A stretch of 43,293 nucleotides of DNA from Candidatus Krumholzibacteriota bacterium (GTDB lineage: Bacteria > Krumholzibacteriota > Krumholzibacteriia > JAJRXK01). Location of the stretch: the NCBI GenBank assembly GCA_024276305.1, contig JAJRXK010000019.1:1-43293 (forward strand), given 5' to 3'. A model generated the notes under the pieces. The model ran no database searches, had not been told where the DNA came from, and saw nothing but the letters and a program-made list of their open reading frames with translations. Positions 5,202 through 43,293 of the stretch are shown piece after piece. The translations under genes and the position numbers were made by a program. Position 1 is the first letter of the stretch, and each line of letters begins with the position of its first letter.

Positions 5202-8063
5202 TTGCACCGTGAGATCCGTGTTCGTGGCGCCCGCCAGCACAATCTGAAGAACATCGACTGTACCATTCCCCGAGATCGACTGACGGTCTTCACCGGCGTG
5301 TCGGGAAGCGGGAAGTCATCGTTGGCATTCGACACCCTCTACGCCGAAGGTCAGCGCCGCTATGTCGAGTCCCTCTCGAGCTATGCCCGGCAATTCCTGG
5401 GGCAATTGGAAAAGCCCCACGTCGATCGGATCGAAGGGCTCTCTCCCGCGATCTCCATCGATCAGAAAGCTCCCAGCCGCAACCCCCGATCGACGGTGGG
5501 GACGGTGACCGAGATCCACGACTATCTTCGTGTCCTCTTCGCCCGACTCGGAGTCCAGCGCTGCCATCGTTGCGACCGTGAGGTGGGGAGGCAGTCGCCT
5601 CAACAGATGGCCGAGGCTCTTCAGAGCCATGGTGAAGGGACGCGTCTCTTTCTCTTTGCTCCCCTGGTGCGGTCTCGAAAAGGGGAGTACCGAACTCTGC
5701 TGGAAGGCCTGGTCGCGGAGGGGTTCACCAGGGTTCGAATCGATGGCGAGTTGCACGACCTCCAATCCGGCTCTCTGCCGAAACTCTCTCGTACCATGAG
5801 CCACGACATCGAAGTGTTGGTGGACCGCTTGGTTCTCGGCAAGGTGAAGCGGTCGAGATTGGTGGACTCCATCGAGACTGCGCTGGGATTGTCCGAAGGG
5901 CTTCTTCTGGGAGAAACGGAGTCTGGAGATCAGACCTTGCTCGGCGAGCAGCGGGCCTGCGTCCACTGTGCGGTCGCCTTCGAGGAGCTCATTCCCCAGC
6001 ACTTCAGCTTCAATTCCCCGCGCGGAGCCTGTCCGCGCTGCAATGGTCTAGGGACCCTCCTGACCGCAGATCCCGATCGACTGATCACCGATCCCGCGCT
6101 CTCGGTGATGGATGGAGCCATCGCGCTCATGGGCAAGTTGGCCGAGAAGGAGAGCATCGGCTGGGGGGCGCAGAAGCTCATGCGGATCGCCGAGGTCTAC
6201 GGCATCGATCTGGATCGTCCCTGGAATCGCCTCTCCAGAGCTCACCGAGAAATCCTGCTCTACGGCGATGATCGTCGGATCCAGTACCGCTACGAAGGCA
6301 CGAACTTCAAGGGGGACTTCGAGGGGGATGTGGTGGGTGTCGCCACCGAGATCGAAAGACTGGTCAAGCAGACTCGCAGTGAACGGCGTCGCCGCTACTA
6401 CGCGCAGTTTCTTCACGAAGGCCGCTGCCCCGCCTGCAACGGGGCCAAACTGAAGCCCGAGAGTTTGGCGGTCCGTCTCGGTGGGCGCAACGTCGCTGAA
6501 ATCGGAGCAATGTCGATCTCCGATGCCCACGACTTCTTCTCTACGATCGACCTCCCGCCTGAGCAGTTGGAGATGGCCCAAGATGCACTTCGAGAAGTGA
6601 CCAACCGTCTGAGCTTTCTTCTGAATGTGGGGCTGGAGTACCTCACTCTGGACCGGTCTGCTCCGAGTCTCAGCGGGGGAGAGAGTCAGAGAATTCGACT
6701 GGGGAGTCAGATCGGATCGGCCCTGGTGGGAGTGCTGTACATTCTGGACGAGCCCAGCATCGGTCTGCATCAGCGGGACAACGCGCGCTTGCTGCGAACC
6801 CTGGAAGGGTTGCGGGACTTGGGTAACACCGTGGTGGTGGTGGAGCACGACGAAGAGACGATCGCAGCCGCGGACCACGTGATCGACTTCGGTCCGGGTG
6901 CGGGCATCAAGGGGGGAGAGGTCGTCTTCAGTGGCTCGGTGGCCCAGTTGCGGCGCAGCGCAGGCAAGAGCCTCACCGCGGCCTATCTCACCGGTCGTCT
7001 GGACGTGGTGCAGCCCAGACCTCCCCGGCCCCCAGGCCGCGGTCGATTGGGAGTCCGTGGCGCATCCCTGAACAACCTGAAGAAGATCGATGTCGATTTT
7101 CCGATTGGGCTCTTCACGGTGGTGACTGGAGTCTCGGGGAGCGGAAATAGCAGTTTGGTGAACGAGACGCTCTTTCCCGCTCTCGCAAGAGAGCTGGGGG
7201 CGACTCGCCGGCGCGTCGGTCCCCACCGACGGCTCACCGGGCTGCGCCATGTCGACAAGGTCATCGACATCAACCAAGATCCCATTGGACGGACTCCCCG
7301 CAGCAATCCGGCGACCTACGTCAAGGTCTTCGGTCTCATCCGCGAGATCTTCGCTCAACACCCCCTGGCCCGATCACGGGGATACCAGCCCGGACGGTTC
7401 AGTTTCAACGTGAAGGGCGGTCGCTGTGAATCGTGCGAGGGACATGGTCAGAATCGGATCGAGATGCACTTCCTTTCCGACGTATGGGTCCGCTGCCATG
7501 CCTGCCGAGGCCATCGATTCAATCCCGAGACCCTCGAGGTGCGCTACCGCGGCAAGAGCATCGCGGACGTCTTGGAGATGGACGTGCAGGAGGCCCTCGA
7601 GTTCTTTGCGAATCATCCCCGGATCGGCCAGATTCTCCAAACCCTCCACGATGTGGGTCTCGACTATCTCAAACTGGGTCAGCCCGCGACCACGTTGAGC
7701 GGAGGGGAGGCCCAGCGGATCAAACTGAGCCGGGAGCTCGCTCGACGCGCCACTGGCAATACCGTGTATATCCTCGACGAGCCCACCACCGGGCTGCACT
7801 TCCACGACATCCGGCGCCTGCTCGAAGTTCTGCACCGCTTGGTGGATGCGGGCAACACGGTCATCGTGATCGAACACAATCTCGACGTCATCCGCAGCGC
7901 GGACTGGGTCGTCGACCTCGGTCCCGAGGGTGGGGACGGAGGTGGTCGAGTGGTCGCGGAGGGGCCTCCGGTGGCAGTAGCCAAAGTGAAGAAGAGCCAC
8001 ACCGGCCGTCATCTGGCGAGAGCACTGGCCGCCAAGAGGAAGGCCCGAGCGCATGGGGCCTGA
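5202..8063 (+). CDS. uvrA: Excinuclease ABC subunit A; second Walker A lysine is Asn
   Basis: 953 residues, normal UvrA length, from a TTG start with GGAG at 5192-5195. UvrA is the damage-sensing ATPase that loads UvrB in nucleotide excision repair. Visible parts are Walker A-1 GVSGSGKSS (K38); the zinc-module segment with CVHC and CPRC around HFSFNSPRGA; signature-1 LSGGESQRIRLGSQ with Walker B YILDEPSIGLH; the second zinc module CESC and CHAC around IEMHFLSDVWVR; and signature-2 LSGGEAQRIKLSREL with Walker B YILDEPTTGLH. The oddity is Walker A-2, which reads GVSGSGNSS: the P-loop lysine is Asn at residue 649 (AAT, 7146-7148). The rest of NBD2 is intact, so this is not a decayed gene. The stop overlaps the following deacetylase-family gene by 11 bp. 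Confidence 0.95.
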   Translation: MHREIRVRGARQHNLKNIDCTIPRDRLTVFTGVSGSGKSSLAFDTLYAEGQRRYVESLSSYARQFLGQLEKPHVDRIEGLSPAISIDQKAPSRNPRSTVGTVTEIHDYLRVLFARLGVQRCHRCDREVGRQSPQQMAEALQSHGEGTRLFLFAPLVRSRKGEYRTLLEGLVAEGFTRVRIDGELHDLQSGSLPKLSRTMSHDIEVLVDRLVLGKVKRSRLVDSIETALGLSEGLLLGETESGDQTLLGEQRACVHCAVAFEELIPQHFSFNSPRGACPRCNGLGTLLTADPDRLITDPALSVMDGAIALMGKLAEKESIGWGAQKLMRIAEVYGIDLDRPWNRLSRAHREILLYGDDRRIQYRYEGTNFKGDFEGDVVGVATEIERLVKQTRSERRRRYYAQFLHEGRCPACNGAKLKPESLAVRLGGRNVAEIGAMSISDAHDFFSTIDLPPEQLEMAQDALREVTNRLSFLLNVGLEYLTLDRSAPSLSGGESQRIRLGSQIGSALVGVLYILDEPSIGLHQRDNARLLRTLEGLRDLGNTVVVVEHDEETIAAADHVIDFGPGAGIKGGEVVFSGSVAQLRRSAGKSLTAAYLTGRLDVVQPRPPRPPGRGRLGVRGASLNNLKKIDVDFPIGLFTVVTGVSGSGNSSLVNETLFPALARELGATRRRVGPHRRLTGLRHVDKVIDINQDPIGRTPRSNPATYVKVFGLIREIFAQHPLARSRGYQPGRFSFNVKGGRCESCEGHGQNRIEMHFLSDVWVRCHACRGHRFNPETLEVRYRGKSIADVLEMDVQEALEFFANHPRIGQILQTLHDVGLDYLKLGQPATTLSGGEAQRIKLSRELARRATGNTVYILDEPTTGLHFHDIRRLLEVLHRLVDAGNTVIVIEHNLDVIRSADWVVDLGPEGGDGGGRVVAEGPPVAVAKVKKSHTGRHLARALAAKRKARAHGA

Positions 8064-8985
8064 GGTTCACTACGCCGTCGGTGCGGTCGATGCCCTCGAC
8101 ATCGGACATCATGTCTTCCCCACCGAGAAGTACGGGCTGGTGCGTGACGGACTGATCCATCGCTTGGGCGTCGCAGCGAGCCGCATCCACTCGGCGCACG
8201 AGATCGAAGACGAAGATCTCGAGCGTGTGCACACCCCTGCCTACCTGCGCGACCTTGCAGCAGCCCGCCGCACTTGGGCCACCGAGAGCAGCGAGATGCC
8301 GGTGGAGGCCGAGGTCATTGCGGCTTTCCGTCAAATGGCCGGTGCCAGCAAGACGACGGTGGAACTCGCCGCACGCTGGGGCATCGGATTCCATGTCGGA
8401 GGTGGGTTCCACCACGCCTTCCCGGACCACGCGGAGGGATTCTGCTATCTGCACGACATGGCGATCGCGGTGGAATGGTGGAGGGCCGAGGAAGGACTGG
8501 ACCGCGTTCTCTTCGTCGATGTGGATGTGCATCAGGGAAACGGGACCGCGGTGATCTACGCGGGAGATTCCGAGACCTTCACTTATTCCATCCACCAACA
8601 GAGAAACTATCCGCAGAAGCAGCGCAGTGACCTCGACCGAGGCTTGGAGGACGGAATCGGTGACGGGGACTATCTGGAGATCCTGTCGCAGGATCTAGAC
8701 GCGATCGACGCCATCTTCCAACCCGACCTGGTGTGCTACGTGGCGGGCGTGGACCCGCATCGCGACGACATTCTCGGGGGTTTGGGACTGAGCTCCGAGG
8801 GACTGCTGAGGAGAGATCGTCTGGTCCTCGACCGCTTCGGGCGGCGGGGGATTCCCATCGCGGTCTTTCTCGCGGGTGGCTATGCCCCGCAACCGCAGCT
8901 CACCGCCGAGTTGCACTTGCAAACGGCTCGTGCCGCCGAAGAGATCGCAATGCAGTACGGTCAGCTCCGGTCCGGCCCTTCGTAG
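8053..8985 (+). CDS. Histone deacetylase-family amidohydrolase (class IV/HDAC11-like)
   Basis: 310 residues, the full length of a single arginase/deacetylase-fold domain. Catalytic elements are visible: the His pair H120-H121 in [11 protein letters not shown], zinc ligands D158 and H160 in [10 protein letters not shown] and D234 in AGVDPHRDD, and the late catalytic Tyr Y277 in LAGGY. The substrate is an acetylated lysine, polyamine or other acylated amine; bacterial members are poorly assigned and the sequence does not decide. The segment GFCYLHD carries His where many relatives have Asn (GFCxxND). The ATG overlaps the uvrA 3' end by 11 bp, which implies translational coupling. The 3' end overlaps queD on the opposite strand by 25 bp. 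Confidence 0.9.
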
Positions 8986-31931: not shown

Positions 31932-32638
31932 AGTCCGTCGGTCGTACCCACGTTGGAATGCGACGTGAGCAGAACCAGGACAGCATTCTTCTCCTCGTGG
32001 ACTGCGGCGTATTCGCGGTGGCGGACGGGATGGGGGGCCACCGTGGAGGACAGGTTGCGAGCCGGCTGGTGACCGACGGGATTTCTCGCGCGGTGCTGGG
32101 TCTGCAGTCGCAGATCGACGCACAGGCCCTGGCCGAGATCCTCGAAGCGGTGAATCAGTCCGTCCACGAGGCGGGGCTGGCCAACGAAGGACTCCGGTCG
32201 ATGGGTTCGACCTGCGTACTCGTCCATGTCGATCCCGAGACGGTCCATGTCGCGCACGTCGGAGACAGCCGCCTCTATCTGCTCTCTTCCGAGGGTACGG
32301 CGCTTCTGACCCACGATCACCGTGCGATTCAGCCGATGATCGATGATGGCCTGCTCACCGCGGAAGAGTCTCGCCATCACCCCTTGCGATGTGTGCTCAC
32401 CCGGAGCATCGGGGTCGACGCCGGAGTCAGTGCCGAGGCCTCGGCCCGGGATTGGAATCGCGGCGATCGGCTCCTGCTCTGCAGCGATGGGCTCAGCGAC
32501 TATGTCGTCGAAGAGGAATTCCTCGCCGTGGCACGGGAGACCGAGGACCTGGAGCTCGCAGGTGATCGATTGATCGAAATGGCCAATGCGGCGGGGGGGG
32601 ACGACAACATCTCGGTGATCCTCGTGGAGAACGACTGA
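31928..32638 (+). CDS. PP2C-family Ser/Thr protein phosphatase
   Basis: 236 residues, compact bacterial PP2C (Stp1/PrpC type), ATG overlapping the small-protein stop. It is a metal-dependent phosphatase acting on phospho-Ser/Thr proteins in the cytoplasm. Motifs in order: REQNQDS, VADGMGGHRGGQVAS (metal-binding Asp), GSTCVLVHVD, VAHVGDSRLYLL, RSIGVDAGVSAEASA, LLCSDGLSD (metal Asp) and GGDDNISVILVE (metal Asp). All metal ligands are present, so activity is expected. There is no Hanks-type kinase gene in the window, which is unusual because the two often sit together. A secreted-protein gene follows shortly after. Confidence 0.93.
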   Translation: MKSVGRTHVGMRREQNQDSILLLVDCGVFAVADGMGGHRGGQVASRLVTDGISRAVLGLQSQIDAQALAEILEAVNQSVHEAGLANEGLRSMGSTCVLVHVDPETVHVAHVGDSRLYLLSSEGTALLTHDHRAIQPMIDDGLLTAEESRHHPLRCVLTRSIGVDAGVSAEASARDWNRGDRLLLCSDGLSDYVVEEEFLAVARETEDLELAGDRLIEMANAAGGDDNISVILVEND

Positions 32639-32668
32639 ATCATGGCCCGAGGCGGAGGTGCGATACTC

Positions 32669-33361
32669 ATGCGTTGTGGTTCTGTCCTACCCGCAGTAGT
32701 TCTGGTCGGCGCCTTGGTCTCCTGCGTCGGAGTCGCGGCGGGCCAGGACCAGAAAAGCCAAGAGGGCGATCACGAGCCCGCCTATCCGCCGGCGTTGGAA
32801 GTTCGGGACGACACGATCTACCCTGAATTCCCAGATTCTCCGCCCGACGCTCCGACCCCTCGCCTGCGGATCGTCTTCGACTTGGTCTCCGGTGCGACCG
32901 AGCGTCACGTCGAGCCCGAAGAGCCCTTCGAGTTTTTCGTCGTGGCCCATGACGTACAGGTGGCTCTTCGGGCCTGGGAGGCCAAGATCGTTCTGGATCC
33001 CCGGATTCTGGTGGTCGAGCGAGTCTTCGACGGCATGAATGTGGGCCGCGACGACGAGATCGTCACTGCCCTCAAGCCCCAGGACTGCAAGTGGGGGACT
33101 CCCATCACCCTGGTTCGGTTCAAGGCCATCCTTCCCCCAGGTGAGTCGAATGATCTAGTGCTGGGTCTGGCTCCCATTGACAAGTCGAGCTTCGATCCGC
33201 CGTCCCCAGGATATTTGGTCTGTCGTCCGGAACCGGATCTGAGGGCCTTCGATGCATGCGACACCTGTGCGGTGATCAATCCTCAGCACGTGCGTCCCCC
33301 GTCGGATCGACCGAGTTCTCTCGATGCGATCCTGCGACCGGTGAAGGGCCGCGAACGCTGA
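32669..33361 (+). CDS. Secreted protein of unknown function, possible lipoprotein
   Basis: 230 residues from ATG 32669, preferred over ATG 32642 because GGCGGAGG lies upstream and a normal signal peptide results (MRCGSVLPAVVLVGALVSC). A lipobox-like L16-V-S-C19 allows lipidation; cleavage after AAG is the alternative. The mature part begins with an acidic Pro-rich stretch and then a beta-rich domain (RIVFDLVSGATERHVEPEEP, EFFVVAHDVQVALRAWEAKI, VLDPRILVVERVFDGMNVG). This reads like an immunoglobulin- or cohesin-like sandwich. Four cysteines in the C-terminal half (KPQDCKWG, VCRPEP and CDTC) could pair. No family is recognised. Confidence 0.7.
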   Translation: MRCGSVLPAVVLVGALVSCVGVAAGQDQKSQEGDHEPAYPPALEVRDDTIYPEFPDSPPDAPTPRLRIVFDLVSGATERHVEPEEPFEFFVVAHDVQVALRAWEAKIVLDPRILVVERVFDGMNVGRDDEIVTALKPQDCKWGTPITLVRFKAILPPGESNDLVLGLAPIDKSSFDPPSPGYLVCRPEPDLRAFDACDTCAVINPQHVRPPSDRPSSLDAILRPVKGRER

Positions 33362-33367
33362 TCATTC

Positions 33368-35182
33368 TCAGTCGAGGTGGGCGCGGTCGCTGTCTCCCAT
33401 TTCCACGTCGCCGTCGGGGAAATACTCCTTCCATCGCTGCTCGACCTTGCGTGCAGTGTCGGGATCGCAGAAGAGTTCCTGGGGAAAGTTCTCCCCCAGG
33501 CGCGCGTCGATGAGCACGGGGGCCTCGTAGCTCAGGTGCTGACGCTGGACTGAGATTCGGCGGGCACAGATGTCCGCCGCCGGTTCGAATCGCGTGAAGG
33601 TCGTCCACAGGAAATTGAAGGGAGAACGCACGGCCTGTTCGGCATCGTCGACGAGGACCAAGAGGGGCCAATCCTCGAAGGCCGGAAGCGAGACGATCTC
33701 CTGGGCGGTTCTCGCGGATTTTCCCCGAGCGTCGGCCTCGATCACCAGGCACCCCCGGCAGAAGACTTCGAACCTGCGCAGCGACGAGGGAAGCTCGCGG
33801 TCGAAGACCTGCGGGAGGGTCCGGATGGGATCTCCAAGCCCCAGCATCACTCCCTTGCTCCCCTCATTGACCCTCGGGCCGGTGTAATCCAGGGTGTCCA
33901 TGGCCAGATTGTCGAAGACGTAGAGATCCCGACCGAAGTCGCAGCGCTCGAGTAGGTGCTCGAGAGTTCCGCGGAAGTCGCGAAGGTCTCGCGGTTGATC
34001 GAGAATCAGGAGGAACTTGGTCAGGGACAACTGCCCTTCCCCCAGGATCCTGAAGGCGGCAGCCATCGCCTCGCGTTTGTAGCGTTGGCGTACCACGGCC
34101 GCGCTCAGCGAGTGATACCCCGTTTCGCCGTAGCTCCACAGATCCATGACATTGGGCATCACCAGGGGAAATACCGGCGAGAGCAGGTGCTGGAGGTAAT
34201 CTCCGATGTAGAAGTCCTCCTGACGCGGCTTGCCCACCACCGTCGCCGGAAGGATGGCATCGCGTCGGCGCAAGAGAGTGTCGAGGTGGAAGACCGGATA
34301 GTCGTGACGAAGAGAGTAATAGCCGTAGTGGTCTCCGAAGGGGCCCTCGGTCCGGCGCTGGTGAGGGTCGACATGACCGGAGAGGACGTACTCACAGGTC
34401 GAAACCAAAGGGAGGGGTCCCGCAGGGTTCGGAGAGACGGGGATCTTGGCACCGGCCAGAAGAGACGCGAGCATCAACTCGGGAACGTTCTCGGGCAGGG
34501 GAGAAATCGCAGCCAGGATCAGGGCGGGAGGACCGCCCAGGAAGACATTCACCGGCAGGGACTGGTTTCTGGATTCCGCCACCTGATAGTGGAATCCTCC
34601 GCCCTTGCCGATTTGCCAGTGGATCCCGAACTGAGTGTCGTCGTAGCGCTGCATGCGGTACATGCCCAGATTCGGCGCGCCGCGGCTGGGGCCTTCGGGG
34701 TGCTCGGTGTAGACCAGAGGCAAGGTGAGGAAGGGCCCCCCGTCTTCGGCCCAGGTGCGGAGAAGCGGCATTTCGGTGGCTCGAGGCGGAGACTGGGCGA
34801 CCTCCAGGACCGGAGCGGATCGACTGCGGCCCACGCCCCAGCGCAGCATCTTGGCGGCGAGGTCTCGCTGGCTCCAGAGGCTTCCGAGGGAGGGAGGTAG
34901 GAGAGTGTGGGGCAGGGCTGCGATTCTGCGGACGAACTCCTCGGGGCCAGGACCGAAGGCCAACTCGACCCGGTCGGAGCGGCCGAAGAGGTTGGTGACC
35001 GCACTCGCACCCCGGCCGTCGAGGTTGCGAAAGAGGAGGGCGGGGCCGCCTGCGGCGATGACTCGGCGGTGGATCTCCGCCGCTTCGAGATCCGTGTCGA
35101 CGGCAGCGTGAACCTCGACGAGATCCTGGCGCTGGCGCAGACGCTCCAGGAAGCTTCGCAGGTCGAGGAGTGCATCGGGCAT
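33368..35182 (-). CDS. UbiD-family decarboxylase
   Basis: 604 residues from ATG 35182 (MPDALLDLRSFLERL); an upstream ATG at 35245 in the same frame is less likely. It is a prenylated-FMN-dependent decarboxylase. The active-site region is visible: N171-x4-R176 (GAPNLGMYRMQRYDD), the metal ligand H189 (GIHWQ), and E279 with D284 (RTEGPFGDHYGYYS), matching the Arg-Glu-Glu/Asp triad of the family. It is longer than UbiD of E. coli (about 500). Candidate roles are ubiquinone or menaquinone (including futalosine-route) precursor decarboxylation, or aromatic acid decarboxylation; sequence alone does not choose. ubiX, needed for the cofactor, is not in the window. It is convergent with the secreted-protein gene. 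Confidence 0.9.
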   Translation of the reverse strand: MPDALLDLRSFLERLRQRQDLVEVHAAVDTDLEAAEIHRRVIAAGGPALLFRNLDGRGASAVTNLFGRSDRVELAFGPGPEEFVRRIAALPHTLLPPSLGSLWSQRDLAAKMLRWGVGRSRSAPVLEVAQSPPRATEMPLLRTWAEDGGPFLTLPLVYTEHPEGPSRGAPNLGMYRMQRYDDTQFGIHWQIGKGGGFHYQVAESRNQSLPVNVFLGGPPALILAAISPLPENVPELMLASLLAGAKIPVSPNPAGPLPLVSTCEYVLSGHVDPHQRRTEGPFGDHYGYYSLRHDYPVFHLDTLLRRRDAILPATVVGKPRQEDFYIGDYLQHLLSPVFPLVMPNVMDLWSYGETGYHSLSAAVVRQRYKREAMAAAFRILGEGQLSLTKFLLILDQPRDLRDFRGTLEHLLERCDFGRDLYVFDNLAMDTLDYTGPRVNEGSKGVMLGLGDPIRTLPQVFDRELPSSLRRFEVFCRGCLVIEADARGKSARTAQEIVSLPAFEDWPLLVLVDDAEQAVRSPFNFLWTTFTRFEPAADICARRISVQRQHLSYEAPVLIDARLGENFPQELFCDPDTARKVEQRWKEYFPDGDVEMGDSDRAHLD

Positions 35183-35326
35183 CGGCAAGAGGTCCTTTGG
35201 TCTGGAGGTTCGCGACAGCATAGCGCGGATGGCCAGCTCTGGCATCAGCTCGTCGGGGGCGAGGGGTCTTGTTCGCGGGCTTCAGAATGTGTAGCCTCTG
35301 CATCGGCCCCAGCCTGGAGACGAAGT

Positions 35327-35866
35327 TTGGTCGACATCACCAGTTGCGAGGTCTGCGGTCGGACGATTCCCGCCATCGGACAGGATTGTCCCTATTGCCA
35401 GCGAGACCGCGGGGATCGTGAAAGCGCGGAGAGGCCCTATCTGGGGCTGGCCTTGCGGTTGTTGGTCTACCTGTTCCTGGCCGATGTGGTATCGACGTTG
35501 GTGTTGGCCATCCTGACCATGGTCCAGAACCGAGAGGAGAGTCTGGGGGCGGCGGTGATTCTGATCGCCGCGGCTGCGCGCCTGCTCCTCGGCGCAGCGA
35601 CCCTCAAGGCCTTCTTTCTCCGCGAAGCTCGCGCGCGCACTCTGCCGTTGATCTTCTTGGCCTACGAAGGTCTGACCGCAGGGGCGGTCCTGGCTGGATG
35701 GTTTCCCATCGATCGGTGGAGCGGGGGCTTGGTGGCTCCATTCTGGAAACTACTCTTCGTGGTGCTCTTTCTGCGCTCGGACGTGAAGGCCTACCTGGAC
35801 CCAGGTCTTGCCGATCGGCGGCGCCTGGGAGAACTCCTGCGAGAGGTGGAGAGAGGCCAGCGCTGA
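35327..35866 (+). CDS. Zinc-ribbon multi-pass membrane protein
   Basis: 179 residues from TTG 35327, chosen for GGAG at 35316-35319; the frame stays open upstream but only as antisense of the ubiD-family gene. The N-terminus is a zinc ribbon with C7-x2-C10 and C21-x2-C24 (CEVCGRTIPAIGQDCPYC). Four to five transmembrane helices follow (LALRLLVYLFLADVVSTLVL; VILIAAAARLLLGAATL; LPLIFLAYEGLTAGAVLAGW; FWKLLFVVLFLRSDVKAYL). The end resembles DUF2569-type proteins (a short helix then SxxVKxYL), which is a tentative match. The function is unknown. It ends 1 bp from the convergent ispG stop. Confidence 0.7.
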   Translation: MVDITSCEVCGRTIPAIGQDCPYCQRDRGDRESAERPYLGLALRLLVYLFLADVVSTLVLAILTMVQNREESLGAAVILIAAAARLLLGAATLKAFFLREARARTLPLIFLAYEGLTAGAVLAGWFPIDRWSGGLVAPFWKLLFVVLFLRSDVKAYLDPGLADRRRLGELLREVERGQR

Positions 35867-35867
35867 A

Positions 35868-37112
35868 TCAATCGGAGTGGGCCGGGCCTGCTTCAACCGA
35901 CCCACCGTAGTGGCGCCGGACGTAGTCCTCGAGGAGGCGGGCGAAGTCCTCGGCGATCCGAGGCCCCTGCAAGGTGGTCGAGAGAGCGCCGTCGATGTAG
36001 ACCGGAGCCTTGGGATCTTCCCCTGTTCCCGGGAGGGAAATCCCGATGTTGGCGTGCTTGCTTTCTCCGGGTCCGTTCACGATGCATCCCATGACCGCCA
36101 CCGAGAGTTCCTCCACCCCCGGATAGAGATTGCGCCACTGGATCATTCTTTCGACCAGATTCCGCTGAATCTCTTCGGCCAGTTCCTGGAAGAGGGTGCT
36201 GGTGGTCCTGCCGCAGCCCGGGCAGGCGGTGACCTGGGGGAAGAAACTCCGGATCTCCATGGATTGAAGGATCTGTTGCGCGACCCGGACCTCTTCGCTG
36301 CGATCCCCTCCCGCGGTGGGAGTGAGGCTCACCCGGATGGTGTCGCCGATGCCCTCCTGGAGAAGGAGGGCCAGCGCGGCGGTGCTGGCGACGATGCCCT
36401 TGCGTCCCATGCCGGCCTCGGTGAGCCCGAGGTGCAGGGGCAGGTCGGTGCGTCGGGCCAGACGATGGTAGACCTCCAGGAGATCGGGAACGGTGCTCAC
36501 CTTGGCGCTGAGGATGATGTGGTCCGGTGGAAGTCCGAGAGACTCCGCGGAGACGGCCGACCGAAGGGCACTCTCGACGATGGCTTCCAGCATGACTTCT
36601 CGCGCTTCTGCCGGCTCGTCGAGAGCGGCATTGGCGTCCATCATTTCGGTGAGCAGCCCGGGGTCGAGGGATCCCCAATTGACTCCGATGCGCACGGGAC
36701 GGTCGTGGTCGATGGCCACCCGGATCATGGTGGCGAAGTTCTCGTCGTGCCGGCTGCGGCTTCCCACATTTCCCGGATTGATGCGGTACTTGGCCAGGGT
36801 GGAGGCACAGTCCGGGTATTCGCGGAGAAGCTTGTGCCCGTTGTAGTGGAAGTCGCCCACCAGGGGGACGTTCAGCCCGGCATCCGCCACTCGGCGCCCG
36901 ATTTCCGCGACTTGGCGCGCAGCCTCGGGGGTGTTCACGGTGATCCGCACCAATTCGCTCCCGGCCCGCGCCAGTTCGATGACTTGGGCCGCGGTTGCGG
37001 AGGCATCTTCGGTGTCGGTGTTGGTCATCGACTGGACGACCACGGGATGGCAGCTCCCCACGGGCACGTCGCCGACGTAGCAGGTTGGAGTCGATCTGCG
37101 AGGGATCTTCAT
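35868..37112 (-). CDS. ispG: 4-hydroxy-3-methylbut-2-en-1-yl diphosphate synthase (GcpE)
   Basis: 414 residues. It catalyses the reductive ring opening of MEcPP to HMBPP in the MEP isoprenoid pathway with a [4Fe-4S] cluster. The N-terminal TIM barrel starts [20 protein letters not shown] and includes [11 protein letters not shown] and [11 protein letters not shown]. The cluster-binding C-terminal domain shows C297-x2-C300 (TACPGCGRT), C343 ([10 protein letters not shown]) and the fourth ligand E350. The length of just over 400 and the sequence ACPGCGR fit the alphaproteobacteria-like two-domain form without the large plant insert. It starts 11 bp after the stop of the M1 aminopeptidase gene, at the end of a minus-strand operon. 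Confidence 0.96.
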
Positions 37113-37123
37113 GGTCTGGATCC

Positions 37124-38860
37124 TCAGTTCGCGAGGATCTGATCGATGGTGTTCGAGGTCATCGAATGGTAGGTCGGCCGGGCGGTGGAATAGATTCGCT
37201 CGGCGCGTTCGCGGCCGGTGTCGGTCTTGACGAGTTCCTCGAAGAGGGGCTGCACGAACTTGCGGCGCCCGACCCGATGGAGGAAATCATCGGCCCGGTC
37301 GTAGGCCGGAGAGTAGTCACTGCTGATACCCAGTCGCAGCCATTCGCAGAGGATCTCGGCATTGCCGGTGTCGGTGAGCGAGAAGGACGCGTCGAGGGCT
37401 TCGAGGCGGTCGCGGTCCAGGCCTCGAGGGAGGCGGCGCAGGAAGTGGATCCACTGCAGCGGATTCCACTTGGAGGTGCCCTCGGGGAGAGCGCCGGTCG
37501 CGACGAAGGCTTCGGCCGCCTCCTCTCCGCGCTCGAAGGCATCGCTCTGCGCTCGGGGCGCGGTGTCCGGAATCCCCGGTCCGTGGATCCAGGCTTCGAG
37601 GTCGATGCGAGCCGCGGCTGCAGGATCCTGGGTGAAGAGTTCCTTGCGCAGGTAGTCGATGAATCGTGCGGTGGTCATGGTCTCGAAAGCATGAGCGTCG
37701 AAGTAGGCCCGCAGGAAGCGATCGAATCGTTCCCGTCCGAAGCTCTCCTCCATCAGCCGGAGCAGGAGGTAGCCCTTCTCGTAGGGAACGTCGGTCATGC
37801 TGTCATCGGGATGGCGATCGCCCAGGTCGAGCTCCAGCCAGGTGTCTCGCGACTCGGGGCCCAGTTCTTCGAGGGTGTCCTCGAGGCGAGACCGGCCGAT
37901 CATGGCTTCCATTTCCGACCGCGCACGGCCGTAGAGCTCCTCCTGGATGCGCCGTTCGAGGTAGACGGTGAATCCCTCGTTGAGCCAGAAGTCGTTCCAG
38001 GTCTCGTTGGTGACCAGATTCCCGCTCCAACTATGAGCCAGTTCGTGGGCGATCAGGGCCACCAGTGACTTGTCGCCCGCTAGGATGGTCGGGGTGGCGA
38101 AGGTCAGGCGCGGATTCTCCATGCCTCCCAGGGGAAAGCTCGGTGGCAGCACGATGACGTCATAGCGCCCCCATCGGTACTCGCCAAACATTCGCTCCAC
38201 CGCTTCGACCATCTTTTCGGTGTCGCTGAGTTCGGCGGCCGCACGGGCGAGCATGCAGGGTTCGGTCCACACTCCGGTCCGGGGACCGAGGGGCTCGAAG
38301 GCCAGATCTCCGACCGCCATGGCCACGAGGTAAGACGGAATGGGCTGAGGCATGCGGTAGCGATAGACTCCCTGCCGGGCCTCCGCTTCGACACTTTGGT
38401 CTTCCGCGGCCATCACCGCCCGCAGCCCCGCAGGAACGCGCAGGACGGCCGAGAAGGTGATGCGGCGGGCGGGATCGTCGAAGCAGGGGATCCAGCTGCG
38501 ATTGTGGATGGATTGGCCCTGGGAATAGACGAAGGGGAAAGTGCCGCCGGCGGTTTGCGGGGGTTCGAGCCATTGCAGGCCAGGGGCCTGGGGGGAGGTC
38601 CGGTAGGTGATCCTCAGGCGGGTTGCCCCCTCGGGGATCTCCACGTGCAGGATCTCTCCCTGGACGTCATCGGTCGCATCGAGCCGATGAGTGGCGGCTC
38701 GCCAGCCTCGAGGCTCTTCGATTTCCACCGAATCGATCCGCAGGTCGCGGGTGTGAAGAATGGCTTCGGGGCGGTCGGATTCTTCTAGGTGGTGCTCGAC
38801 CGAGCCCTGGAGGGTGCGGTGGTCGAAGTCGACCGTCAGATCCAGATCGAAGTGGTGCAT
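37124..38860 (-). CDS. M1-family aminopeptidase (leukotriene A4 hydrolase-like)
   Basis: 578 residues, no signal peptide, so probably cytoplasmic. It removes N-terminal residues from peptides. The substrate-binding GGMEN is at 245-249, the zinc site is H272-E273-x2-H276 with E295 (HELAHSW then NEGFTVY), and a conserved Tyr is in [12 protein letters not shown]. The domain order is an N-terminal beta saddle, the catalytic domain and a helical C-terminal domain (roughly 450-578) like that of LTA4 hydrolase. The length (~580-610) also fits that group rather than PepN (~870). It sits between the receiver/ATP-grasp gene (18 bp upstream) and ispG (11 bp downstream) in an apparent operon. Confidence 0.92.
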
Positions 38861-38878
38861 GGAGGACCTCGGGAGGGG

Positions 38879-41800
38879 TTAGTCGGTGGAGTCGGGCTCA
38901 GCGGGCGGCCGCGATCTTCGCATCGCGGAAGGAGGGAGAACGACTCCCCGATTGTGCCGACCATCTACCAGAATGCGCAACGGATGCGAAAGCCGCAAAT
39001 GACGAATGTACTTCGTCTCGTGTTCGGCCGGGCGTGATGCGAGCCAGTCCCAGTCCACCCGGTCCTCCTCACTGCGGTTGTTGACCGTGAAATAGCGAAT
39101 GCGAAGCGAGGTCATGTTCTGGAAGAAGTGGGTCCCCTGGCTCGGGGTGACCTGGAAGTCGGGGAGCGAGGTCTCGACGATGGTCCTGGCCTGGGAAATC
39201 TGGTCCCAGCTCACCGGGACGCCCAGCCAGGGGTCCGCGCTGCCCCAACGACCGGGTCCGATGAGCAGATAGGGCCGTTCCTCTGCGGCCAGGCGGGCAT
39301 TGAGCTCGCCGACCTCGGTCGCGATGGTGCGGGATTGGCTCGCGTCGAAGGTCTCGGGGCGGACGTAGACGATGTCTTCGACATCTTCGAGGAGGCCGTT
39401 GCCGAGGGCCATGGGACTGGAACAGATGCTCTGGGCGTATTCCTCGGGACCGATGCGGACGTCATCGGGTTCTCCTCCGGCCACCAGCCGTCTCAACTGA
39501 AGAAAGCCGAAGGTCCGGGGACTGCTTTCGAGGTCCACCGCGAATTCCAGCTCCACCGGAGACCCCATCCCCCGCGCGGCGATGCTCAGGATTCGCCGAA
39601 GGATGGCTGCGAGGGGGAAGACCTCGCTGTTGAGCACCGGTGCAAAGGTCACCACCGGGTAGCCCTCGTCACGGAGCCCCTCGTAGAGACGGTCGTTCTC
39701 GGCCGAGTAGGTCGAAGCCACCAAGCGCAGAGTCCCGTCTTCGCGGGCAGCATCCAAATCCAGTTTGGTCAGCGTGGCCTCTTCGTCGAAGGAGGGCATT
39801 TGATGAGGATGGCTCAAGTCCAAGGCGTAGAATTGACGCTGCGCCGCGGCCAGGGTCGACTCGGTCGAGCTGAAAGCAGGGACGTGGCGCGGGTGGTGGG
39901 GCGAGAATCGGAGGGCCTGCAGCCCACCTGCGACCTGACGCCCCAGTCCGAGGGCTACGATGGCCAAACCATCTTGCCGACGCATGGGGGCGATGGGGTA
40001 GAAGTTGTGGGACCTTGCGACTCCGGAGATGTGGGGATAGAAGCGATTTCCGTGGGCTTGGCCGATCACCTGCTGGAGGATGACGGCCATCTTTTCGTCT
40101 TCGATGCGAGTGGCGGTCGAGGCGGAGTAGCTCTTGGAAACGCGACTGAAGGTCGAAGCGTAGACGAGTTTCACCGCCCGCGCGAGCTGGGCCAGCCTCA
40201 CTTGGGAGTTCGGGTGGTTGTTCGGCAGCATGTAGGTGCGGTAGATGCCGGCGAAAGGTTGAGTGCTGCTGTCTTCGAGCTGACCGGAGCTTCGGATCGC
40301 CAAGGGGTAGCGAACCCGGTCGAGGAAGGACTCCAGATCCTGTCGTACCGATTCGGGAAGGCGTGCCGCGACGAAACGGTGGGCGATCTCCTCGTCCGTA
40401 CTCGAGCCGTAGGCCAGGTCGTGCAATTCATTGATGCTCAAGAACTCGTCGAAGATGTCGGTTGCGATGATCGAACTCGGAGGCACTTGCACCGTCACAT
40501 CTTCGTATTGCTCACTCACCGCGTAGTGGGCGAGCATGGCGTTCGCGAAGGCCAGACCCCGGCCTTTCCCGCCCAGACTCCCCTGGCCGATGCGCATGAA
40601 CTCGCGTCCGCTGTCGAAACGTTGGGGCGAGAAGTCCGTGATCACGCCGCGTTGCAATTGCAGCCGGTGCGAGCGCAGCGTATCGCTCAAGTAGCGGCGG
40701 AGGGATTCCTTGGAGTCGAAGTCGGCGAGTTGGAAGGGGCGGATGCTCTGGGCCAACCCGAACTCGGTCCGTGCTCTCAGCCAATTCGAGAAGTCGTTGC
40801 GTGAAGAGTGGTAGAGGAGAGAATCCTCTGGAATGTGGGGAATCGCATCTTCGAGATCGCGAAGGCTCTGCGCCCGCCCCCATTCGGTGCCGTCGGGATG
40901 TCGAAAGACGAAATCGCCGAATCCGAAATTGTTTTCGATATAACGACGCACGTCTTTGAGTAGGCGTGGAGACCTCTTGTTGATGAAGTGGAGCTGCGCC
41001 GCTTTGGCGAGGTCATAAGCATCTTCGTTCGATGACTGTAGAAGGGCCGGAAGGTAGGGATCTTGACTGCGGATGTAGCGGAGAAGATCCAAACCTGCGC
41101 TCTTGGACTTGTGACCTTCCCTCGGAAAGCTGAGGTCACTGATCACTCCCAGAAGATAGGGCCGGTATTGCTCGTAGATCTCCATGGCCTCTTCGTAGGT
41201 GCGGGCCAGAAGGATTTTCGGACGGGCCCGCAAACGCAGGAGGCGGTCGGCCAGGTTGATTCCCTCGTCCATGAGCCGTTCGGTCTGCTGCACGATGATG
41301 GTGTAGAGCAGGGGGAGGTAGAGCGAGATGAAGCGGACCGAATCCTCGACCAGGAGAATCGTTCGCACTCGCGCGACTCGAGTGTCGTGGTCGAGATTCC
41401 ACTGATCTTCATACATCTTGATGATCGCGATGAACAAACGAGCATCGCCGGTCCACAGAAACATTTGGTCGACAGCCTCGGTCGATCCTTCTGACCGCAG
41501 GCGCTCGAGTTCTCCGATGTCGAAGGCGAGCAGGACCACGGGCAGGTCGTGGTGGATTTCTCGGATTCTCGAGGCGAGGGTGATCCCGTTCATTCGCCCG
41601 ATCTGGGCCATGGTGATCACGAGGTGGAAGCTCTGTTGAGCCAGGAGGTCGAGGGCCTCAGCTCCGGTCGAGACGCGGGTTACCCGAGGGGCATCACTGA
41701 GGTTGAGATTGACGAATTCGCGTAGTACGAGTTCTGCAAGTCGTCCGCCCTCGTCGAGGGTGAATGCGTCGTAGGGGCTCGCGACCACGAGAACATTGCG

Positions 41801-41887
41801 CACCCGATGGGGCATGAGCTTGTCGAAGCTCACCGCAGTCGCCATGGTCGGGGCGAAGAGATCCGACGAGCGCGTGGGCTCGGGCAT
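38879..41887 (-). CDS. Double receiver fused to PEP synthase/PPDK-like ATP-grasp domain
   Basis: 1002 residues from ATG 41887 (MPEPTRSSDLFAP). Residues ~30-155 form a receiver fold whose phospho-acceptor position is Met93 (LVITMAQIGRMNG), so it is a pseudo-receiver. Residues ~175-320 form a second receiver with acidic pair E181-D182 (LLVEDS), acceptor D251 (VISDLSFP) and K304 (FINKRSP). From ~430 the protein resembles the ATP-binding N-domain of PEP synthase/pyruvate phosphate dikinase: MRIGQGSLGGKGRGLAFAN (432-450), IRSSGQLEDSSTQPFAGIYR (531-550), EDEKMAVILQQVIG. The phosphohistidine swivel and PEP-binding barrel of those enzymes were not found. It could be a phosphorylation-controlled kinase or dikinase-like regulator; the reaction is unknown. 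It lies in an apparent operon with the M1 peptidase and ispG. Confidence 0.8.
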   Translation of the reverse strand: MPEPTRSSDLFAPTMATAVSFDKLMPHRVRNVLVVASPYDAFTLDEGGRLAELVLREFVNLNLSDAPRVTRVSTGAEALDLLAQQSFHLVITMAQIGRMNGITLASRIREIHHDLPVVLLAFDIGELERLRSEGSTEAVDQMFLWTGDARLFIAIIKMYEDQWNLDHDTRVARVRTILLVEDSVRFISLYLPLLYTIIVQQTERLMDEGINLADRLLRLRARPKILLARTYEEAMEIYEQYRPYLLGVISDLSFPREGHKSKSAGLDLLRYIRSQDPYLPALLQSSNEDAYDLAKAAQLHFINKRSPRLLKDVRRYIENNFGFGDFVFRHPDGTEWGRAQSLRDLEDAIPHIPEDSLLYHSSRNDFSNWLRARTEFGLAQSIRPFQLADFDSKESLRRYLSDTLRSHRLQLQRGVITDFSPQRFDSGREFMRIGQGSLGGKGRGLAFANAMLAHYAVSEQYEDVTVQVPPSSIIATDIFDEFLSINELHDLAYGSSTDEEIAHRFVAARLPESVRQDLESFLDRVRYPLAIRSSGQLEDSSTQPFAGIYRTYMLPNNHPNSQVRLAQLARAVKLVYASTFSRVSKSYSASTATRIEDEKMAVILQQVIGQAHGNRFYPHISGVARSHNFYPIAPMRRQDGLAIVALGLGRQVAGGLQALRFSPHHPRHVPAFSSTESTLAAAQRQFYALDLSHPHQMPSFDEEATLTKLDLDAAREDGTLRLVASTYSAENDRLYEGLRDEGYPVVTFAPVLNSEVFPLAAILRRILSIAARGMGSPVELEFAVDLESSPRTFGFLQLRRLVAGGEPDDVRIGPEEYAQSICSSPMALGNGLLEDVEDIVYVRPETFDASQSRTIATEVGELNARLAAEERPYLLIGPGRWGSADPWLGVPVSWDQISQARTIVETSLPDFQVTPSQGTHFFQNMTSLRIRYFTVNNRSEEDRVDWDWLASRPAEHETKYIRHLRLSHPLRILVDGRHNRGVVLPPSAMRRSRPPAEPDSTD

Positions 41888-41908
41888 GGATGCTCTCCCG
41901 GGTTGGAG

Positions 41909-41960
41909 AAAAAGACGGGCCGCGCCGCGGTGAGGATGGCCTCTTGCGACGCGGCCCGTC
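41909..41960 (-). terminator. Rho-independent terminator of gdhA
   Basis: Read on the minus strand, 41960 to 41909. Perfect 11-bp arms are 41914-41924 and 41950-41960 (gacgggccgcg on the plus strand pairs with cgcggcccgtc), followed on the minus strand by five T residues (plus-strand a at 41909-41913). The 25-nt loop can fold a second small hairpin (gagg/cctc). It lies 32 bp after the gdhA stop and 22 bp before the start of the next gene, so gdhA is probably its own transcription unit. Confidence 0.85.
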
Positions 41961-41991
41961 AACTCTCAGCTCTCAGAGAGCGAGGATTCCA

Positions 41992-43293
<1,302 letters not shown>

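Follow-up and report, generated by a model that had tools for sequence, protein, structure and literature searches.

The window, the whole stretch of 43,293 nucleotides that was analysed (contig JAJRXK010000019.1 of a Candidatus Krumholzibacteriota bacterium, assembly GCA_024276305.1), encodes a 1002-residue protein with two receiver domains, an ATP-grasp domain of the PEP synthase type and a conserved C-terminal domain. Its relatives, here called family A, are linked in the genome to glutamate dehydrogenase (GDH). Such a neighbourhood denotes a shared process rather than direct contact between the two proteins. We propose that the main protein is a receiver-gated, ATP-dependent regulator of the neighbouring GDH. 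We regard this reading as evenly balanced between right and wrong; GDH as the target, the chemistry and the role of an invariant histidine, His920, are all parts of it that we infer.

Architecture of the main protein

The main gene is a true reading frame on the minus strand, with an ATG at 41887 and a stop codon at 38881-38879 (Table 1). An alternative TTG start further upstream is possible and would fall within the terminator hairpin described below. Pfam profiles recognise PPDK_N (residues 437-802, E 3.3e-33) and, in two stretches, Response_reg (E 1.2e-12, the best being residues 62-121). An AlphaFold2 model calculated with 69 homologues (pLDDT 86) contains two receiver folds, a helical linker, an ATP-grasp domain and a separate C-terminal domain. 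Foldseek matches this model to rifampin phosphotransferase, PEP synthase and pyruvate phosphate dikinase (PPDK), and to receiver proteins such as PleD. Sequence comparison with solved structures yielded matches only to receivers and to the N domains of PEP synthases. The DUF5752 match in the linker falls short of the Pfam cut-off in the main protein (E 0.00022), and 18 of 29 homologues give this match with E <= 0.01. The linker also bears a strongly conserved motif, YHA.RNHFS.WL.ARTEF.

Table 1. Features of the main gene and its surroundings in the window. Residue numbers refer to the main protein.
Feature	Position	Strand	Basis
Main gene (family A): REC-REC-linker-PPDK_N-C-terminal domain, 1002 aa	38879..41887	-	ORF, Pfam, AlphaFold2
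Receiver 1, residues ~29-147; no acidic pair, no acceptor Asp (Met93)	41447..41803	-	Pfam Response_reg 62-121, fold, column counts
Receiver 2, residues ~174-320; E181, D182, D251 (codon 41137-41135), S285, K304	40928..41368	-	Alignment, fold
Linker domain, residues 321-429	40601..40927	-	Weak DUF5752 match (338-403)
PPDK_N ATP-grasp, residues 430-802	39482..40600	-	Pfam, conservation, fold, alignment
C-terminal domain, residues 803-989; motifs GPGRWGS, DPWLGIPV, PSQG[ST]HFFQN; His920 (codon 39130-39128)	38921..39481	-	Conservation, model
gdhA (glutamate dehydrogenase, NADP-type), extending past the window at its 5' end	41992..43293	-	Pfam ELFV_dehydrog E 1.8e-89
Strong GC hairpin, with T5 after it, in the interval from gdhA to the main gene	41909..41960	-	RNA fold
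M1 aminopeptidase, starting 18 bp past the main gene	37124..38860	-	Linked within the window's own family only
ispG/gcpE, next gene in the same direction	35868..37112	-	Linked within the window's own family only

The two receivers differ in their phosphorylation sites. Position 93 of receiver 1 is Met in 37 of the 69 relatives, Thr in 21, Asn in five, Phe in three and something else in the other three, with Asp absent from the residues listed. Because Met, Thr, Asn or Phe holds this position in most relatives, receiver 1, which is supported as a receiver by its Pfam match and fold, is a conserved pseudo-receiver of the aspartate-less type. Receiver 2 has a long insertion after strand 1 and the full set of residues that define a response regulator: an acidic pair, an acceptor Asp, a Ser/Thr and a Lys. 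E181, D251 and K304 are each present in 69 of 69 sequences from many phyla, and D182 in 63; position 285 is Ser in 63 sequences and Thr in six. Three Bacteroidota homologues taken from named records retain all key receiver residues. A search of the genome for HATPase_c found 47 matches elsewhere and none on the contig of the main gene, which therefore has no histidine kinase. A preliminary description of the protein, made from its sequence, had postulated tandem receivers of which only the second is intact, and no histidine kinase nearby. Our results agree on all of these points, and the loss of D251 that it had named as counter-evidence was seen in none of the homologues.

Five residues of the ATP-grasp domain (K441, R532, E779, E781 and Q797) are invariant among the 69 sequences, and R799 is present in 67. 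In an alignment with genuine PEP synthases of the window's phylum, these key residues fall at matching positions. Given this invariance and alignment of the nucleotide-binding residues, the domain looks competent for binding and using ATP, as far as a sequence can indicate. The phosphohistidine domain (PEP-utilizers, PF00391) and the PEP/pyruvate barrel were found in none of 29 diverse homologues, the main protein included. The place of the barrel is taken by a last domain of ~185 residues, which is not a barrel and ends at about residue 989. An ordinary PPDK is encoded elsewhere on the same contig (C2:101329, 893 aa).

This C-terminal domain is modelled as a confident, compact unit (pLDDT 91). 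It has no clear Pfam match and no meaningful sequence match in the PDB, and a Foldseek search of the PDB returned no significant structural match (best E 0.017). Within the ORF set it was never found without PPDK_N, always following it. His920 is invariant (69/69) and lies inside the motif PSxG[ST]HFFxN; G879, R880, G882, L888, G889, E905, P915, S916, G918, F921 and N924 are invariant as well. Inspected by eye, the domain follows the element order of a swivelling phosphohistidine domain (strand, [ST]DPxW, strand, loop-[ST]H-helix, strand, DGxxxxGV), with His920 at the place of the phospho-His. We considered a hidden phosphohistidine domain on the basis of this visual likeness, but a profile comparison by hhalign with 45 phosphohistidine domains gave a score of 13.9 versus 13.4 for a reversed decoy, further hhalign comparisons gave no match, and there is no phosphohistidine domain among the top 50 Foldseek matches. 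Homology is not claimed.

Because the C-terminal domain with its invariant His is both distinct and conserved, 'half of a PEP synthase' does not fully describe the main protein. The preliminary description was right about the domain make-up that it recognised: the PEP-synthase-type ATP-binding domain is confirmed by the PPDK_N match and the invariant nucleotide-binding residues, and the stated absence of phosphohistidine and PEP/pyruvate domains, including from the C-terminal part, is upheld by Pfam, profile and fold comparisons and by the 29 homologues. What it overlooked are the conserved C-terminal domain with His920 and the recurrent neighbour, gdhA.

Distribution and linkage to glutamate dehydrogenase

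The main protein or a relative is present in 76 of 80 genomes of the window's phylum, and in all 46 of the good genomes. A scan of GTDB genomes confirmed at least 587 relatives. The best 80 of these come from Acidobacteria, Bacteroidota with Ignavibacteria, Calditrichota, Zixibacteria, KSB1, Desulfobacterota, Myxococcota, Firmicutes and further groups; many of the source genomes are metagenome-assembled, and their labels may be imperfect. Family A is thus a core, multi-phylum family and not a local oddity, with a prevalence far above chance.

When neighbouring ORFs were clustered, GDH ranked first (49 of 80 loci). Among the 51 testable loci, defined by at least 2.5 kb of flank on either side, a GDH gene lies within 1.5 kb of the family A gene in 32 and is lacking in 19. 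By comparison, none of the 51 loci has a control neighbour from the window (ispG, ubiD or the M1 peptidase) adjacent to the family A gene. The GDH-linked loci span Acidobacteria, Bacteroidota/Ignavibacteria, Desulfobacterota, Calditrichota, Zixibacteria, Firmicutes and others. Their arrangement varies: over all loci, GDH is upstream on the same strand in 25, downstream on the same strand in 14 and downstream and convergent in eight. Whole-genome tables for the window's phylum place GDH within 2.5 kb of 34 of 51 family A genes and of 33 of 38 genes of a paralogous family, B. As these genomes mostly hold one to four GDH-family genes, we estimate that chance adjacency would be well under 1%. The partners belong to two GDH classes, ~70% and ~31% identical to the GDH of the window. 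We also looked for a fusion of GDH with the ATP-grasp or C-terminal domain and found none in the ORF set.

Two paralogous families share the core of the main protein. Family B (~580 aa) consists of PPDK_N and the C-terminal domain, with no receivers. For the 33 family B genes of the window's phylum that have a GDH nearby, gdh is always directly upstream on the same strand, at a distance of 39-260 bp. One family B gene (locus L111, 8702-10444) and its homologues sit directly behind a GDH that is ~31-34% identical to that of the window; at L111 the preceding 441-aa ORF (7380-8705) has no Pfam match and may be in the wrong frame, and PF00208 matches this place in the genome search. In family C (~1060 aa), PPDK_N and the C-terminal domain are preceded by an unassigned N-terminal region and followed by a nucleotidyltransferase domain, the motif of which (GS.KN...G..SD[IL]D) is retained in 17 of 17 sequences. 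GDH-linked members are found at L111 (10437-13622) and at L112-L115, L119, L120 and L122-L128. Three loci (L111, L112 and L120) have the gene order A, gdh (~31%), B, C and then the 70% gdh, and cassettes of gdh, B and C recur in many other genomes. Family C looks like a second-layer regulator. A search with PADLOC gave no match for families A and B, and matched family C only through the nucleotidyltransferase core; a role in defence was set aside given the lack of a match for A and B.

The same module, PPDK_N and the C-terminal domain adjoining a GDH gene, is seen in the window, where gdhA is the immediate upstream neighbour of the main gene at a distance of 104 bp. The intergenic stretch that holds the hairpin has a calculated folding energy of -56.6 kcal/mol (z -5.6), and two of three close relatives, G008 (L116) and G009 (L118), have similar hairpins. 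Our promoter/terminator scan overlooked it owing to its loop limit, and an Rfam search of positions 32000-43293 produced no match. The hairpin is probably an intrinsic terminator of gdhA or a point of read-through, and possibly an attenuator for the main gene. Since so strong a terminator-like hairpin intervenes, simple co-transcription with gdhA is doubtful, and the main gene is likely to be expressed by read-through or from a promoter of its own. On the other side, the M1 aminopeptidase and ispG genes (38860..35868, minus strand) follow with gaps of no more than 20 bp each, an arrangement conserved in G008 and partly in G007 and G009, but not beyond. An operon with these two genes was rejected as the functional context, the linkage being confined to the window's own family (0 of 51 loci elsewhere).

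A proposed mechanism and its rivals

In the mechanism that we propose, a histidine kinase or a small phosphodonor would phosphorylate Asp251 of receiver 2, with receiver 1 as a structural partner that cannot be phosphorylated. Phosphorylated receiver 2 would then switch the PEP-synthase-type ATP-grasp module. This module and the C-terminal domain would spend ATP to phosphorylate the adjoining GDH, or else bind and retune it, and His920 would be the foremost candidate for carrying the phosphoryl group or for catalysis. Our preference for covalent modification of GDH rests on the invariance of the catalytic-type residues and the His motif, and on the nucleotidyltransferase of family C. Comparative sequence data favour the proposed mechanism in several ways: the adjacency holds across phyla, cultured gut Bacteroidota included, and across arrangements, it involves two GDH classes and the paralogous families B and C, and the ATP-site and receiver 2 residues are invariant. 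Against GDH control stand the roughly one third of testable loci without a nearby GDH, the hairpin after gdhA and the absence of a GDH fusion from the ORF set; against the chemistry, conservation of residues does not prove catalysis, and the protein has no recognised phosphoryl carrier domain. A further reading, which we consider rather improbable, is an ATP-grasp kinase of a new kind, in which PPDK_N would phosphorylate its own His920 from ATP and the phosphate would pass on to GDH, to Asp251 or to both. If true, nitrogen control in many phyla would rely on a relative of PEP synthase where a histidine kinase would otherwise act.

The main rival explanation takes the ATP-grasp domain to be an adenylate sensor, which binds ATP, ADP or AMP with no phosphoryl transfer and makes the protein a non-covalent, receiver-gated allosteric partner of GDH. 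The GDH neighbourhood fits this explanation, and the known dikinase cycle cannot run in a protein that lacks the phosphohistidine and PEP domains. We nevertheless think it unlikely: pure sensors often lose residues such as the E779/E781 acidic pair and Q797, which are invariant here, and the C-terminal domain is conserved to the degree expected of an active site. The nearest structures and families (rifampin phosphotransferase, PEP synthase and PigC/RedH) would also fit a metabolic enzyme under receiver control, activating some small molecule connected with glutamate or 2-oxoglutarate in the manner of rifampin phosphotransferase or the prodigiosin ligase PigC. GDH would then provide the substrate. 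Enzymes of this type, however, need a phosphohistidine domain, which was not detected in the main protein; neighbourhood clustering brought up no recurrent pathway genes, and a regulatory role, not a step in a pathway, is suggested by the two receivers of one paralogue and the nucleotidyltransferase of another. This makes a metabolic enzyme quite unlikely in our judgement.

The absence of a histidine kinase from the contig would be accounted for by a self-contained His-Asp relay, in which the C-terminal domain is a very diverged phosphohistidine domain and the ATP-grasp domain loads His920, from where the phosphate passes to Asp251. The element order, the position of the His and its complete invariance speak for such a relay. 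We find it very doubtful, given the hhalign score barely differing from that of the decoy, the Foldseek list devoid of phosphohistidine domains, and family B, which has the C-terminal domain yet no receivers. Finally, the GDH neighbourhood could be incidental and the main protein a general signalling enzyme, as the preliminary description proposed. The 19 of 51 testable loci that lack a GDH within 1.5 kb are in keeping with this, but across many phyla the genes stay adjacent as their order and strand change, both GDH classes and the paralogue families B and C are involved, and the control genes score 0 of 51; an incidental neighbourhood is highly improbable.

Relation to known systems

Glutamate dehydrogenase provides one of the main routes by which ammonium enters cells, and to our knowledge its control is poorly understood beyond a few model groups. 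Family A is widely conserved yet unstudied, and from its recurrent adjacency to GDH across many phyla we propose that it probably controls how bacteria make or break down glutamate. Such a conserved family, associated with GDH in a wide range of phyla that takes in cultured gut Bacteroidota, would supply a regulator so far missing from this picture and would reveal a new use of the PEP-synthase ATP-grasp domain. In our literature search, no paper turned up that described the GDH link, the C-terminal domain or the paralogues B and C.

The REC-PPDK combination was recorded in the 2018 census of response regulators by Galperin (PMC5847659), and PPDK domains are listed among the effectors of aspartate-less receivers (PMC4395418); the passages that note it give no function. 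The proteins that they list apparently have the same architecture as the main protein, including receivers without Asp. Homologues in Parabacteroides, Phocaeicola and Prevotella have this architecture with all key residues. In Parabacteroides distasonis, the homologue (WP_041525632.1) is annotated merely as 'PEP/pyruvate-binding domain-containing protein' and runs divergently from gdhA, as it does in Phocaeicola. A further NADP-GDH gene of P. distasonis lies 3.5 kb away. The P. distasonis locus (L199; NZ_OY725790.1, 89160-104057), in which the two NADP-GDH genes flank the homologue, also contains RapZ and a nucleotidyltransferase-family gene. NZ_OY725790.1 is labelled as a 278 kb plasmid and may be a fragment of the chromosome.

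According to its title, a study of Bacteroides thetaiotaomicron by Baggio and Morrison (1996, J Bacteriol 178:7212; cited in PMC4539542) concerns one or more trans-acting genes downstream of gdhA that affect GDH activity. That locus is near gdhA in a member of the same bacterial order as Parabacteroides, Phocaeicola and Prevotella, and family A provides a concrete suspect for the trans-acting gene(s). The match to the title is only possible, because the P. distasonis homologue diverges from one gdhA and is downstream of the other GDH gene, with three genes in between.

PEP synthase (PpsA) and rifampin phosphotransferase, the best fold matches of the main protein, have in common with it an N-terminal ATP-grasp domain with the same Lys, Arg, acidic pair, Gln and Arg positions. 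The main protein differs from both in having no detectable swivelling phosphohistidine domain and no barrel, with receivers ahead of the ATP-grasp domain and a new domain behind it. The PPDK of its own genome shares PPDK_N but, unlike the main protein, retains the phosphohistidine domain. GlnD and GlnE represent the class of nucleotidyltransferases that modify nitrogen-control proteins. The main protein has no nucleotidyltransferase domain, unlike GlnE, GlnD and family C; family C, within the GDH cassettes, ends in a domain of the GlnE/GlnD type, with only the core NTP_transf_2 motif in common.
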